Source: a virus | Virus record (IMG/VR): IMGVR_UViG_3300029319_000502 | Span: 1-24,249 of that record | DNA length: 24,249 nt | Strand: one strand, 5' to 3' | Notes under the pieces: model-generated | What the model was told of the DNA's origin: nothing | The model's database searches: none | Seen by the model: only the letters and a program-made list of their open reading frames with translations | Position numbers and translations under genes: made by a program | Part shown: one piece after another, positions 8,236-23,850 of the stretch | Layout of the letters: each line of letters opens with the position of its first letter | Position numbering within the stretch: the first letter of the stretch is position 1

Positions 8236-8243
8236 TATTTATA
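8236..8243 (-). promoter_or_regulatory. T4-type late promoter TATAAATA
   Basis: The minus strand reads TATAAATA, the exact T4 late consensus recognised by gp55-type sigma factors. The predicted start (about 6 nt downstream, near 8230) leaves a leader of about 21 nt carrying the AGGAT ribosome site of the gene starting at 8209. The motif contains the TAA stop of the upstream 324-residue gene (GTA TAA ATA). Confidence 0.75.
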
Positions 8244-9213: not shown

Positions 9214-11054
9214 TATGAAGTCACTGTTAATGATTGTGTTTGTCTATCGACTTCGGCTGTTGTAGATGAACGCGCAGTGTCAATTTGCAATATATAATTA
9301 CGAAGAGGCTTAATTACACTTTCATTCTGTGGTGTAACTTTTATAGGTAAAAATGTTTGACCAGATATAATTTGTGTAGGTCTAAACCCTACTAAGCTTA
9401 CTTTACCTGTGGCCGCAGTATATTGTCCTACATTATCTAAAAGTACATTACCATCTAAGTCGACTATTTCTAACGTAGTAGATCCTAGACGATTTTTAAT
9501 CTGACAAACTAAACCATTAAATTCAAACACATCACTTTGTACCCTAAAGAATATGTCATCTGGAGTTGCAATAGCAGTTGGGAAATTTACGTCTAGAGTA
9601 TTTAAAGTGTTTATAGTAATAGTTGGTCTCATTTGAACACTGACTTCCATACTGCTGGATAATATAGAATCATCTAGTGCATCAATTTCTGTAAGCAAAT
9701 TTGATTTTCTAAATATGCCACCAAATGTAGAAACGTTACGAGTAAAGAAAGAATTCATTAAATTAAAAACTCTTTCTTCAGCAGAAATCAATGTTATACC
9801 TGTTTTGCCAGGATCATAAGAAAACCTTGTACTTAGCTCTAGGAATACATCTTCAGGATCAGTAAATTTTGTAGTCATAGACATTACAGATAGGTTGTCT
9901 GTGTAATTAGTTACTATTGCATCTTTAACAGATTGCTTTACAGCATCACTAGTATTTTTTTGGAATTGCAGTGAAATGTAAACAGCACCATAATCAATTG
10001 GTTCGTTTTGATCACCGCTCCATACTGAAGCACTTTGTACTTGAGGAAAGTTAGTTTCTACAGTCGCCTTATAGTCAAGTGCAGTCACCAATCTTTTTTG
10101 CGAGGCATATGCTATTGGTGCAAGTTGTTTTACAGAATCTATGGATTGCTTAAATGCACCACCAGTCGATTCAGTTACTGTAACAACATTTAGAGAATAG
10201 TCAACTCCATTTACAGTAACATCTGTTGCTGGAGTAAATACTGTGCCATTGTTCGCAACTGGACCTACAGTAGATAAGTATCTAACTTCTACTTTTTCAC
10301 CAGGCTCAGGTGCTTTACCGAACGATAGACCGTCACCAAAATTTAATTCATAAAAACCGTTAGGTGCTTCATTTATAGCGAAGTGTGTTGAGTTTTGATC
10401 TACTGTTATTGCTAAGGTTAGTGGAGTGTAAGAAATAAAAGATGTAGAACTAGGTGATTCAAAAACGTCAACTTCTGCAGTTGATGTATCCATGGTCGTA
10501 TCTGGAATTACATATATTTGTCTTTCATTTTTTTCAGGCACAAAGAAAGTTTTAGTTTTTTCTACACCTTCAACAATTGGTAAAGCGTCTGACTCTTCTG
10601 TAGTCTTAAAAACATATAAACCTGTTCCATCGTCAGATGCAAAGAAAGTTTCACGAGTTCTAAACGTATGAGTTACACCGTCAATAGAAGAAGTAAACTT
10701 TGTGCCTTTGACTAACTGCAATTTTGCAGGTCTACCTACTACACCAGCTAAGTTTACGTTTAAATTGACTGTTGCAGTAGCAGCTTTTCTTGATACTACT
10801 TCGTATCCCAATGTTTGTGCATGCGATACGACTGAACTTCTTAATTGTGCTGTACTCAAAAAAGCTTCATTCAATGAGAAGTTTGCAGTCAAAGCATTGA
10901 TATGCGTATTATAAGCTAATACGTCTAGAACATTTGATATTCCTGAAGCTTCAAAGTCGTAATCTGAAAATTCACTTTTACTTTTAAAAAAGTTTTTTAA
11001 ATTATTTTTTATTAGAGTAAAATCAAGATCAGACGATTTTATTTGTGCTGTCAT
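9213..11054 (-). CDS. gp6: Baseplate wedge subunit gp6 (baseplate J-like)
   Basis: gp6 forms the core dimers that close the inner ring of the baseplate and opens when the sheath contracts. The N-terminus IKSSDLDFTLIKNNLKNFF and then FEASGISNVLDVLAYNTHI is the typical gp6 opening of T4-like phages. Further on, NEAFLSTAQLRSSVVSHAQT and LGYEVVSRKAATATV are the conserved stretch that positions the J-like domain. At 613 residues it is close to T4 gp6 (660). It starts immediately after the gp25 stop codon, with a weak GAGG about 11 nt upstream, and ends in the TAATG junction with the next wedge gene. The neighbouring gp25 and wedge-like gene give the usual contractile-tail wedge set. Confidence 0.95.
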   Translation of the reverse strand: MTAQIKSSDLDFTLIKNNLKNFFKSKSEFSDYDFEASGISNVLDVLAYNTHINALTANFSLNEAFLSTAQLRSSVVSHAQTLGYEVVSRKAATATVNLNVNLAGVVGRPAKLQLVKGTKFTSSIDGVTHTFRTRETFFASDDGTGLYVFKTTEESDALPIVEGVEKTKTFFVPEKNERQIYVIPDTTMDTSTAEVDVFESPSSTSFISYTPLTLAITVDQNSTHFAINEAPNGFYELNFGDGLSFGKAPEPGEKVEVRYLSTVGPVANNGTVFTPATDVTVNGVDYSLNVVTVTESTGGAFKQSIDSVKQLAPIAYASQKRLVTALDYKATVETNFPQVQSASVWSGDQNEPIDYGAVYISLQFQKNTSDAVKQSVKDAIVTNYTDNLSVMSMTTKFTDPEDVFLELSTRFSYDPGKTGITLISAEERVFNLMNSFFTRNVSTFGGIFRKSNLLTEIDALDDSILSSSMEVSVQMRPTITINTLNTLDVNFPTAIATPDDIFFRVQSDVFEFNGLVCQIKNRLGSTTLEIVDLDGNVLLDNVGQYTAATGKVSLVGFRPTQIISGQTFLPIKVTPQNESVIKPLRNYILQIDTARSSTTAEVDRQTQSLTVTS

Positions 11055-11495
11055 TTATCTTAGCCTCGCTAAATTTAAGTCAAGTGTTACTGTTTCACCT
11101 ACACTTAATACTTCAAACGTTACACTAATTCTTACAGTGTTTTGGTCAGGTAATAAGTTAACATCTACGTCAATCACTTGAGCTCTAGGTTCGTGTAAAT
11201 CTACAGCTTCAAAAATATTATCTGCAATAATATCAGCTTCATCGCCAGTTTCTAACTCAAACAGAAAATCACTTAGGTCACCACCAAACGTGGTATCAAA
11301 CGGTTTTTCATTTCTATTAGTCATAAGCAAATTCTTTACAGATTGCTTAACTGCGGCAATAGCTGTTTTCTTAAAAATATCACCCGAAGGTTTTGCATTG
11401 AAAGTTAAATCAATGTCAGAATAATCAATACTTCGAGAGCCAATAATCGAAGTACCAAATATATTACCGTCTTCTATAGAAAATGCTTTTGCCAT
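11055..11495 (-). CDS. gp25: Baseplate wedge subunit gp25 (GPW/gp25 family)
   Basis: This 146-residue protein matches the gp25 family in length and pattern: a helical middle (AAVKQSVKNLLMTNRNEKPF), a FGGDLSDFLFE stretch, and the family's EPR motif at residues 102-104 (LHEPRAQVIDV). gp25 joins the gp6 ring and nucleates sheath assembly. It sits directly upstream of gp6 with no intergenic base. No good Shine-Dalgarno precedes the ATG; instead a perfect TATAAATA lies only 5 nt upstream, so a leaderless late transcript is possible. The first downstream Met is far into the protein, so the ATG at 11495 is the only reasonable start. Confidence 0.95.
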   Translation of the reverse strand: MAKAFSIEDGNIFGTSIIGSRSIDYSDIDLTFNAKPSGDIFKKTAIAAVKQSVKNLLMTNRNEKPFDTTFGGDLSDFLFELETGDEADIIADNIFEAVDLHEPRAQVIDVDVNLLPDQNTVRISVTFEVLSVGETVTLDLNLARLR

Positions 11496-11500
11496 GTTTC

Positions 11501-11508
11501 TATTTATA
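11501..11508 (-). promoter_or_regulatory. T4-type late promoter TATAAATA abutting gp25 start
   Basis: The minus strand reads TATAAATA then GAAAC then ATG. Using the usual T4 late spacing (start about 6 nt after the motif), the first transcribed base would be the A of the gp25 ATG at 11495. The motif contains the TAA stop of the upstream spike gene (GTA TAA ATA). The match is exact, but the function is inferred. Confidence 0.6.
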
Positions 11509-19471: not shown

Positions 19472-19479
19472 TATAAATA
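19472..19479 (+). promoter_or_regulatory. T4-type late promoter TATAAATA driving gp4
   Basis: An exact late-promoter consensus lies 29 nt before the gp4 ATG, predicting a start near 19485 and a leader of about 24 nt. It faces the minus-strand promoter at 19494-19501. Confidence 0.8.
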
Positions 19480-19493
19480 AAAATATCTGAAAC

Positions 19494-19501
19494 TATTTAT
19501 A
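19494..19501 (-). promoter_or_regulatory. T4-type late promoter TATAAATA driving gp48 and the baseplate block
   Basis: The minus strand reads TATAAATA. The predicted start is near 19488, giving a leader of about 26 nt that includes the AGGAAA ribosome site of gp48. Confidence 0.8.
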
Positions 19502-19508
19502 ACGAAAA

Positions 19509-20003
19509 ATGCCGTATTCTGGAAAGTATAAACCAAACGTGAGTAAGTACAGAGGTGATCCCAGTAAAGTGATATATCGATCACACTGGGAAAAGCTTTG
19601 TTTCATGTGGTGCGACAACAATCCTAATGTAAAACATTGGAGTTCAGAAGAAACTATAGTGCCTTATCTTTGGGAAATAGATAAGAAGATGCACAGATAT
19701 TACGTTGATTTAAAAATTACATTCAACGACGGCAAGACAATCTTAGTTGAAATCAAACCTGACAAAGAAACAACACCGCCCAAGAAACCTGATAAATCTA
19801 AAAGGTACATTGGCGAAGCGTTGACATACGTTAAGAATATGAATAAGTGGGAAGCTGCAACTAAGTATGCTAAGGATAGAGGCTGGGACTTTCAAATATG
19901 GACTGAAAATACGTTAAAAAGTATGGGTATTATGAAAGAACAAAAAGGTAAGTTAAAACCTTTGGCACCATTGAAGCCTTTCCGCAAAAAGCGTAAAAAA
20001 TGA
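19509..20003 (+). CDS. gp4: Head completion protein gp4 (gp50/gp4 family)
   Basis: The 164-residue protein matches T4 gp4 along its length: GKYKPNVSKYRGDPSKVIY, RSHWEKLCFMWCDNNPNVKH, then VPYLWEIDKKMHRYYVDLKI and ILVEIKPDKETTPP. It has the layout of a PD-(D/E)XK nuclease-like fold (Glu28 in HWE, Asp67 in YVD, Glu81 and Lys83 in EIK). In T4 it is needed to finish DNA-filled heads before tail joining. The C-terminus is very basic (KPFRKKRKK), suiting DNA contact. It heads the plus-strand block under its own late promoter; no strong Shine-Dalgarno is visible between the predicted transcript start and the ATG. It is followed after 13 nt by an unrecognised gene. Confidence 0.92.
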   Translation: MPYSGKYKPNVSKYRGDPSKVIYRSHWEKLCFMWCDNNPNVKHWSSEETIVPYLWEIDKKMHRYYVDLKITFNDGKTILVEIKPDKETTPPKKPDKSKRYIGEALTYVKNMNKWEAATKYAKDRGWDFQIWTENTLKSMGIMKEQKGKLKPLAPLKPFRKKRKK

Positions 20004-20011
20004 TATAAATA
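20004..20011 (+). promoter_or_regulatory. T4-type late promoter TATAAATA abutting the 20017 start
   Basis: The sequence reads TATAAATA, CTTGT, ATG, directly after the gp4 TGA. With standard late spacing the transcript would begin at the A of the ATG at 20017. This is the same geometry as at gp25. Confidence 0.62.
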
Positions 20012-20016
20012 CTTGT

Positions 20017-20607
20017 ATGTCTAATCTATTTCAAAAGTTAGAGTTTGAAGCTTTCCGTGCTGGCATCAACCCGCGTACTAAAGAAGCACAAGATTGGTTT
20101 CGCAAAAAAGCACAGTCTATGCGTAGAATTAATAGACAAGATCTTTTACAAGATGAACAGGTAAAACTTGTCAACAGACAGAATCCTTTGATTGGTTCTA
20201 TGAATATGTTTTTTTATGATCCTAAACATAAAGAAACGTTACCATATTATGACAGGTTTCCTTTAGCCATTATCGTTAAACCTGCACCAGGTGGATTTTA
20301 TGGATTGAACTTACATTATCTGCCAAATGTTTTAAGAGCAAAATTTTTAGATGCTCTATTAGAAATAACAAACAACAATAAGTACGACGAGTCAACTAGA
20401 TTCGGAGTTACTCTAAAGCTTTTGCAGTCATCAAGTAAGATGAGATTTTTTAAACCTTGTTATAAACACTATCTTACTAGGCACGTGAAATCTAGACTTG
20501 CTCGAGTTATGGCGCCTGAATGGGAGATAGCTACGTTCTTACCAACTGCACAGTTTGAGAAAGCTAACAAAGGTGCTGTGTATGCAGATTCAAGGAAAGC
20601 AATATGA
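20017..20607 (+). CDS. Conserved phage protein of unknown function (196 aa)
   Basis: I do not recognise this protein with confidence. It starts MSNLFQKLEFEAFRAGINPR and has a distinctive core TLPYYDRFPLAIIVKPAPGG, then FYGLNLHYLPNVLRAKFLDA, that has the look of a conserved family motif. It is basic overall (RKKAQSMRRINRQ near the N-terminus) with a C-terminal HYLTRHVKSRLARVMAPEWE. There is no signal peptide or membrane segment. It sits between gp4 and a tube-initiator-like gene, overlapping the latter by 4 nt. In T4 the neighbour of gene 4 is gene 2 (DNA end protector), so a DNA-terminus or packaging role is one possibility and a tail-assembly role another; neither is shown. No Shine-Dalgarno precedes the ATG, only a late promoter 5 nt upstream. 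Confidence 0.75.
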   Translation: MSNLFQKLEFEAFRAGINPRTKEAQDWFRKKAQSMRRINRQDLLQDEQVKLVNRQNPLIGSMNMFFYDPKHKETLPYYDRFPLAIIVKPAPGGFYGLNLHYLPNVLRAKFLDALLEITNNNKYDESTRFGVTLKLLQSSSKMRFFKPCYKHYLTRHVKSRLARVMAPEWEIATFLPTAQFEKANKGAVYADSRKAI

Positions 20608-22117: not shown

Positions 22118-22186
22118 GAAATATACCTTAGCATGCTAATTAACGAATTAAAAGAAAAAGAAGAAGCACAGGCTCGAGGAAAGTAA
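22004..22186 (+). CDS. gp51: gp51-like hub assembly protein, probably translated as -1 frameshift extension of gp26
   Basis: This frame encodes about 60 residues: it begins LINLSHDNLENFYTTNYQLL, passes through DYMIPWEREIYLSMLINELK and ends KEEAQARGK. The IPWEREIYLSMLI core resembles the short gp51-type proteins of T4-like cyanophages and, more generally, the C-terminal extension of tail chaperones. There is no ATG, GTG or TTG between the in-frame TGA at 21992 and the internal ATG at 22100; starting at 22100 would drop the first half. An ATT at 22007 is the only marginal alternative. Reading it as a -1 extension of gp26 gives a 297-residue fusion. Its TAA overlaps the tape-measure ATG (TAATG). 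T4 gp51 is much longer and independently translated. Confidence 0.72.
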   Translation, partial: LINLSHDNLENFYTTNYQLLQNFHYSLSDLDYMIPWEREIYLSMLINELKEKEEAQARGK

Positions 22187-23850
22187 TGGCTGAACGTACT
22201 TTATCAGACTTAAATATAGAACTAGAGGCCGTCAACAAAACTTTGGACGAACAAACAGTAGGCCAAGGTAGATTGATTGATGCAGTTGAAGATTTAGTGG
22301 CACTTCAACGTAGAAATCTGGACGACTTAGAAGCAGATATTGAAGATAAAGATGCTGCCCAACCTACTGCTCAACCACGTGGCGCGGGTGGAGGTGGAAC
22401 TGGAGGCGAAAGTTTCGCTTCAGGTGTTTTAAGTAAAGTACCTAGGTTAGCAGGTATACCCGGTGCAGCAGTAAGCGCTGTGCCAAAATTATTAGCTGTC
22501 ACAATGGCTGATGAAATAGGAGAATACGTTACAAGTCAAACTGGCAGTGAAGAGGTAGGTAGTGCGGTTGAGAGAGGCTTAGTGGCTGGTGGCATAGGTT
22601 CCTTCTTTGGAAAAAGAATAGGCCTAATTGCTGGCGTCATCGGGGCTGGATTGACAGAAGAAAACCAAGATAAACTTACAAAATTAGGTGAAGCTTTAGC
22701 ACCAACATTCGATAAATTAAAGAATGCTGTAACAGACTTAGTTGATGTACAGCTTCCTACGACGGAACAAGTGCTTGACGGTGTATCGGACACTTTTGGA
22801 AATGCAATAGATGGTTTAACACAATTAGCAACAGGTGATTTTAAAGGGCTCACTCAAAATCTTGATGATATTGCTCTTAGCGCGGCAGGATTATTTGCAC
22901 TAGTAAAACCTGGCAAATCATTAAGTCTAGCATTTAGCGCTTTAAAAGCACCATTTACAGCTGCCAGTACTGCGCTAACTTCTATGGCTGGTCTTGGTGC
23001 AGCAACTACCGCCACAACTACTGCAGCAACAGCTGCAGCAACCGGTTTGACACCAGGCACTGTAAACAAAGCAACTGGAAACATTGTAGGTGTTGATGGT
23101 AAAGACACTACTGTGAAAGGTACAGATCCAAAAGCTAAAGATTTAATGAAAGAAATAAAAGGAAAAGCAAAAACTTCAGCTCCAAAGGTGCCGGCTACCG
23201 GTAGACTTGCTAAATTTTTAAAGATATTGAAAGGAGGCGGTCCTTTAGCAGGAATTATTTCAGCGGCACAAATTGGATTGATATTATCTTCACCTGGATC
23301 TATAGATGATAAAATAGGCCTGTTAGGTGGTGCTATTGGCAGTGGGCTCGCTGGATTGGGTGGAGCTGCACTTGGAACTATGTTGGGAGCAGTTGGTGGC
23401 CCATTTGGTGCGGTAGCCGGTGGTCTAGGATTAGGATTGATAAGTGGTTTTGCTGGTGATGCAATTGGTATGGCCATAGCTCAATATCTTTTCGATAAAA
23501 AAATTACAGCTTTTGGCGATGGCTTTTTAGGCAGATTAATCAACAAAGCCGCGGGTTCACCTGATACAGAAGCACCGCCAAGTATACCTACTAGTTCTTC
23601 AGGTGTGGATGGTGGACTTGCTGCAGCAGCGGCAGGTGGTGGTATGTCTACAATACCTCGCAACACTGGCGCTTCTGTTGCACAAAGTGTTACGGCAATG
23701 TCACCCGGTGCAATGGGTGGTAGTGCGCCATCAGTTGTGAATGCGCCCACAACAATGGCTATAGGCTCGTCACAGACTACATATGCAGGAGGAGGCGTAA
23801 GTACTACTGACCCACGCCGTCCTTTATTTACTGGTGGTACTTCTTATTAG
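22186..23850 (+). CDS. Probable tail tape measure protein (gp29-like position)
   Basis: The 554-residue protein opens with a coiled-coil-like stretch (LSDLNIELEAVNKTLDEQTV to LDDLEADIEDK, about 1-56) and continues with Gly/Ala-rich hydrophobic helices: VERGLVAGGIGSFFGKRIGL, GLAGLGGAALGTMLGAVGGP and FGAVAGGLGLGLISGFAGDA (about 345-430). The tail end is low complexity. Long helical character with membrane-compatible segments, and a position right after the tail chaperone pair, are typical of tape measures; T4 gp29 has 590 residues, so a tail of roughly T4 length is implied. GAGGAAAG precedes the ATG by a few bases and the start overlaps the gp51-like stop. The gene ends convergently with gp32. 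I saw no sequence motif that proves gp29 homology. Confidence 0.62.
   Translation: MAERTLSDLNIELEAVNKTLDEQTVGQGRLIDAVEDLVALQRRNLDDLEADIEDKDAAQPTAQPRGAGGGGTGGESFASGVLSKVPRLAGIPGAAVSAVPKLLAVTMADEIGEYVTSQTGSEEVGSAVERGLVAGGIGSFFGKRIGLIAGVIGAGLTEENQDKLTKLGEALAPTFDKLKNAVTDLVDVQLPTTEQVLDGVSDTFGNAIDGLTQLATGDFKGLTQNLDDIALSAAGLFALVKPGKSLSLAFSALKAPFTAASTALTSMAGLGAATTATTTAATAAATGLTPGTVNKATGNIVGVDGKDTTVKGTDPKAKDLMKEIKGKAKTSAPKVPATGRLAKFLKILKGGGPLAGIISAAQIGLILSSPGSIDDKIGLLGGAIGSGLAGLGGAALGTMLGAVGGPFGAVAGGLGLGLISGFAGDAIGMAIAQYLFDKKITAFGDGFLGRLINKAAGSPDTEAPPSIPTSSSGVDGGLAAAAAGGGMSTIPRNTGASVAQSVTAMSPGAMGGSAPSVVNAPTTMAIGSSQTTYAGGGVSTTDPRRPLFTGGTSY

Follow-up and report, generated by a model that had tools for sequence, protein, structure and literature searches.

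T4-type late promoters five nucleotides before the start codon point to leaderless late transcripts in marine T4-like phages

The leadered mRNAs of T4 late transcription are textbook knowledge, and leaderless mRNAs are also well known. The gp55-dependent T4 late promoters (PMC1524935, PMC2988020) place their octamer at −13 to −6 relative to the transcription start (PMC1524935), and the marine phages described here share with them the octamer TATAAATA, the start register (as judged by base composition) and a position in front of late structural genes. The difference lies in the distance to the gene: the T4 sites located here all stand at least 13 nt from the ATG and are leadered, whereas the marine phages have a class at exactly 5 nt. 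In bacteria, leaderless genes are conventionally recognised by a −10 element lying about 12 nt upstream of the start codon (PMC3160421). Like such genes and the lambda cI mRNA (PMC9031893), the marine class has a −10-type element one helical turn before the AUG and lacks a Shine–Dalgarno sequence, but it uses a phage late-type promoter and recurs across many late genes of one group. An unusual translation start is also known from T4 gene 25, whose ribosome-binding site is split, with a Shine–Dalgarno sequence 27 nt upstream that a hairpin brings near (PMC3014915); the gene 25 studied here shares the unusual start, but has a late promoter at its ATG and no Shine–Dalgarno sequence. Late promoter prediction failed in a previous pelagimyophage study (PMC7029224), and the paper on phage Melnitz gives 15 late promoters and mentions leaderless transcription only in the title of a reference (PMC9004378). 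We found no published leaderless T4-type late transcripts in the open literature, most subscription journals lying outside the scope of the search; both ingredients, T4 late promoters and leaderless mRNAs, are known, and their combination is apparently unreported in that literature.

We analysed a 24,249-base IMG/VR virus record, hereafter the window (Table 1). The first-pass annotation had read a late octamer 5 nt from the ATG of a 196-aa gene (20004–20019), with no Shine–Dalgarno sequence upstream, and had proposed a leaderless transcript for that gene. The octamer at this spacing and the missing Shine–Dalgarno sequence are confirmed: TATAAATA, CTTGT and ATG (20017–20019) follow one another directly on the + strand, and the window has no Shine–Dalgarno sequence upstream of this ATG. 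Beyond the earlier reading, the gene can be identified as gp2 (phrog_429). The gp4 stop codon (20001–20003) abuts the gp2 octamer, leaving 13 nt between the gp4 stop and the gp2 start, and downstream of gp2 lie a tail-tube-like gene and then a baseplate hub gene. The hub gene is followed by a 554-aa ORF (22186–23850) with no Pfam or PHROG match.

Table 1. Late promoters and associated genes of the window; transcription starts are predicted.
Feature	Position	Strand	Basis
T4-type late promoter octamer TATAAATA of gene 2 (−13 to −6)	20004..20011	+	sequence; position fixed in 77/78 gp2 loci
Spacer CTTGT, 5 nt (−5 to −1)	20012..20016	+	length constant, 23 sequences among relatives
Gene 2, DNA end protector, 196 aa; predicted +1 at 20017, the A of the ATG	20017..20607	+	phrog_429, E=2e-49; A peak in leadered promoters
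Gene 4, head completion, TnsA-like fold	19509..20003	+	phrog_218, PF08722
Leadered late promoter of gene 4, 29 nt leader	19472..19479	+	octamer and distance to start
Leadered late promoter of gp48-like gene, 31 nt, AGGAAA motif; comparator	19494..19501	-	octamer and distance to start
Late promoter octamer, 5 nt before gene 25 ATG	11501..11508	-	sequence
Gene 25, baseplate wedge, 146 aa, second leaderless candidate; predicted +1 at 11495	11055..11495	-	PF04965, phrog_261
Leadered late promoter of gp10-like gene, 26 nt, AGGA motif; comparator	8236..8243	-	octamer and distance to start

The same arrangement, hereafter N5, begins gene 25, where the minus strand reads TATAAATA-GAAAC-ATG (11508–11493). 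Each of the five exact octamers in the window precedes a late structural gene, two of them at 5 nt and the others at 26, 29 and 31 nt. The number of bare octamers is not unusual (5 versus 2.9 expected); the two TATAAATA-N5-ATG sites, however, compare with a mean of 0.03 in 100 dinucleotide shuffles, none of which produced two. That the geometry recurs at gp25 had earlier been taken to argue against coincidence, and both the shuffles and the relatives agree. Between gp4 and gp48, the divergent TATAAATA promoters at 19472 (+) and 19501 (−) face one another; transcription of either leader therefore runs across the opposite promoter, and the leaders are complementary in part.

Measuring the distance from TATAAATA to the ATG of the next ORF in twelve genomes gave 17 sites at exactly 5 nt and none at 1, 3, 4, 6 or 7. 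In the ten marine T4-like genomes that form the set once Melnitz and the window are added, 19 sites lie at 5 nt and none at 3, 4, 6 or 7, against a mean of 0.78 (maximum 4) at 5 nt for 55 permuted octamers of the same composition; the Poisson p of about 4e-20 is only a guide, because relatedness among the genomes leaves their sites partly dependent on one another. The first-pass annotation had suggested searching related phages for enrichment of TATAAATA-N5-ATG, and such enrichment proves very strong, with single-nucleotide precision. Nine sites at 5 nt remain when gp2 is left out as a check on selection by that gene, and 11 further sites at 5 nt, with none at 4 or 6, come from the variant octamers [ACG]ATAAATA, whose sites form a set of their own. 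A further 114 contigs, for which HTVC008M gp2, a tape-measure-like protein and a CsgF protein served as queries, have 18 of their 38 dereplicated TATAAATA sites at 5 nt (control mean 0.38), several of the 18 being divergent members of the query families themselves. The gp2-free count, the variant octamers and the contigs fetched by other genes argue against a bias from fetching by gp2. Separate from the spike at 5 nt is a second, broad class of leadered sites, with 16–40 nt from promoter to ATG. A minority of sites falls at 6 to 9 nt (gene 25 of L009 and Mosig, gene 2 of L096 and L134, and CsgF loci such as L358 and L379), so leaders of 1–4 nt must sometimes be tolerated.

Conservation is closest at gene 2, for which 78 IMG/VR loci code for gp2 homologues and have enough upstream DNA: NATAAATA stands exactly 5 nt before the gp2 ATG in 77 and at 8 nt in one. 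Since the spacer takes 23 different sequences at a constant 5 nt, its length, not its sequence, is under conservation. Three loci (L016, L025 and L065) carry unrelated DNA upstream of gp2, yet the promoter and the 5-nt spacing are present. Early gp2 codons, from codon 2 onwards, vary synonymously (Ser TCT/AGT, Leu TTA/CTA, Asn AAT/AAC), so the ATG is the true start; these amino-acid-preserving changes rule out a misassigned start codon. N5 at gp2 is retained at 36–40% protein identity in the Pelagibacter phages HTVC008M and Mosig and in the Methylophilales phage Melnitz. In C48C1 and G007, gp2 is 62% identical to that of the window and is leadered instead, from which it follows that the leadered and N5 states interchange. 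The gp25 homologues likewise span several states, being N5 without a Shine–Dalgarno sequence in the window clade, HTVC008M and L142, having the octamer at 8 nt in G001 and Mosig, and otherwise being leadered, mostly with motifs of the AAGAG or GAGG type. Members of an 84-aa ORF family stand behind an N5 late promoter in C48C1 ((−) 104644) and G007 ((+) 2429), whereas those in G001–G006 lack N5 and have a Shine–Dalgarno-like motif.

Pelagibacter-type phages commonly carry N5, with nine such sites in HTVC008M against six leadered ones. Genes that repeatedly carry it in pelagimyophage-like genomes include gp2, gp25, gp48, CsgF and a tail-tube-like gene, among others. No N5 gene was found in T4, Syn9, XG4 or BUCT-ZZ01, and in T4 (35% GC, 32 octamers) all located sites are at least 13 nt from an ATG. 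P-SSM2 and S-PM2 have one variant-octamer N5 site each, which is the background level, and the pattern is absent from KVP40, S-SSM7, phiM12, DLP_6, phage OC, X1 and SRB7757. Absence or background levels in T4, the cyanophages examined and the others rule out N5 as a general T4-like trait. Far from being confined to the window phage, the layout recurs as a class of promoters among marine T4-like phages. In one contig, L361, a gene for a 93-aa membrane-like protein (1240–1518) has a strong terminator directly upstream and is accompanied by a CsgF-like gene (2118–2594, PF10614); in both, 5 or 6 nt separate the octamer from the ATG, and many loci in L343–L422 are similar.

Leadered promoters provide evidence on the start site that is independent of the N5 genes. 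Of 222 different leadered promoters of the clade, 77% carry A and 9% carry G as the sixth base beyond the octamer, and the bases flanking that position are A in 28–55%; in the N5 class, the sixth base is the A of the ATG. Judged by base composition rather than mapped RNA, the sixth base marks the transcription start. The A peak thus matches in this clade the T4 late register that had earlier been used to put +1 on the A of the gp2 start codon. Translation signals separate the two classes as well. The median anti-Shine–Dalgarno energy is +0.4 kcal/mol for N5 genes versus −4.7 kcal/mol for leadered genes (p=3e-10), the Shine–Dalgarno sequence being missing at N5 partly because the octamer occupies its place. 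N5 start codons are ATG in 139 of 143 cases (GTG in 3 and TTG in 1), as expected for leaderless initiation, which is strongly AUG-dependent in E. coli and Caulobacter (PMC9031893).

These results support the leaderless transcript proposed for the 196-aa gene, and we consider it highly probable that late transcripts of the N5 class start at the initiation codon itself and undergo leaderless translation, the 5′ ends and 70S initiation being inferred from sequence and from known systems. Gene 2 would then have a T4-type late promoter whose +1 is the A of its start codon. Late in infection, a phage-modified RNA polymerase (by analogy with T4, the gp55/gp33/clamp system) would start at that A and yield an mRNA opening 5′-AUG, and ribosomes, most likely 70S as on known leaderless mRNAs, would initiate on the terminal AUG without a Shine–Dalgarno sequence. 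Gene 25 of the window appears to follow the same design, and these phages would possess two late promoter classes, one leaderless (N5) and one giving a 16–40 nt leader with a Shine–Dalgarno sequence.

The octamer could work as a late promoter while ribosomes that terminate at gp4 and re-initiate on a gp4–gp2 mRNA account for most translation of gene 2, with little from the N5 transcript. The 13 nt between the two genes and gp4's own late promoter at 19472 would suit such an arrangement; a read-through mRNA from that promoter probably also carries gp2 in the window, and the leaderless transcript is therefore perhaps not gp2's sole mRNA. We nevertheless judge this account decidedly unlikely, for it would leave the exact 5-nt distance without a reason for conservation, and N5 is kept at HTVC008M gp2, which adjoins a divergent gene, at Mosig gp2, just behind a terminator, and in L016, L025 and L065 despite their unrelated upstream DNA. 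Strong intrinsic terminators lie at most 70 nt upstream of the promoter at Mosig gp2, the HTVC008M 2OG-oxygenase gene, the G002 tail-tube gene and the 93-aa gene beside CsgF; a terminator just upstream accompanies 21 of the 180 unique N5/N6 contexts, compared with 12 of the 372 leadered contexts. Barring a leaky terminator, most of the mRNA at such sites must come from the N5 promoter. In relatives with terminators or a divergent neighbour, read-through can be rejected as the only origin of the mRNA.

Transcription might instead start a few bases off the ATG, giving very short leaders of 1–4 nt rather than none. The minority of sites at 6, 8 or 9 nt fits this idea, but the spike at 5 nt alone and the A peak at the sixth base of leadered promoters make it very improbable as the general case. 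Chance occurrence of TATAAATA near an ATG in AT-rich DNA is consistent with the octamer alone not being enriched in the window; against it, permuted octamers of equal composition show no spike (0.78 versus 19), distances of 3, 4, 6 and 7 nt are empty, and T4, for all its octamers, has no N5 gene. The permuted controls and the empty neighbouring distances refute a chance origin of N5, whose probability we regard as negligible.

If N5 transcripts are leaderless, the advantage may lie in compactness, or in holding expression at a modest level where a protein is required in few copies. The proteins gp2, gp25 and gp48 are virion parts of which few copies are needed. Low output is just one idea, because the N5 set also holds a tail-tube-like gene, CsgF and a 2OG oxygenase. 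A gene for ribosomal protein bS21 occurs in HTVC008M (W03 91237–91392), Mosig (W04 9983–10132) and Melnitz (W13 35461–35619), and none was found in the other 17 records searched, including G006 (142 kb), which has N5 genes. The HTVC008M protein has been reported to enter E. coli 70S ribosomes (PMC9723584). It is conceivable, though unlikely, that pelagimyophage-like phages run a late translation programme in which many late mRNAs are leaderless and phage bS21, by changing the ribosome of the host, leads late in infection to different translation of leadered and leaderless mRNAs. The link between bS21 and N5 is a correlation in three related isolates and a lead only.

The same promoter seems to have been shifted onto the start codon repeatedly, in phages of very abundant ocean bacteria such as SAR11. 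With N5 as a simple criterion, late promoters can be located in pelagimyophages and start codons corrected, and gp2 and gp25 supply paired leadered and leaderless homologues useful for testing the effect of leaderless translation. The bS21 programme, if true, would amount to dedicated late translation in pelagimyophage-like phages.
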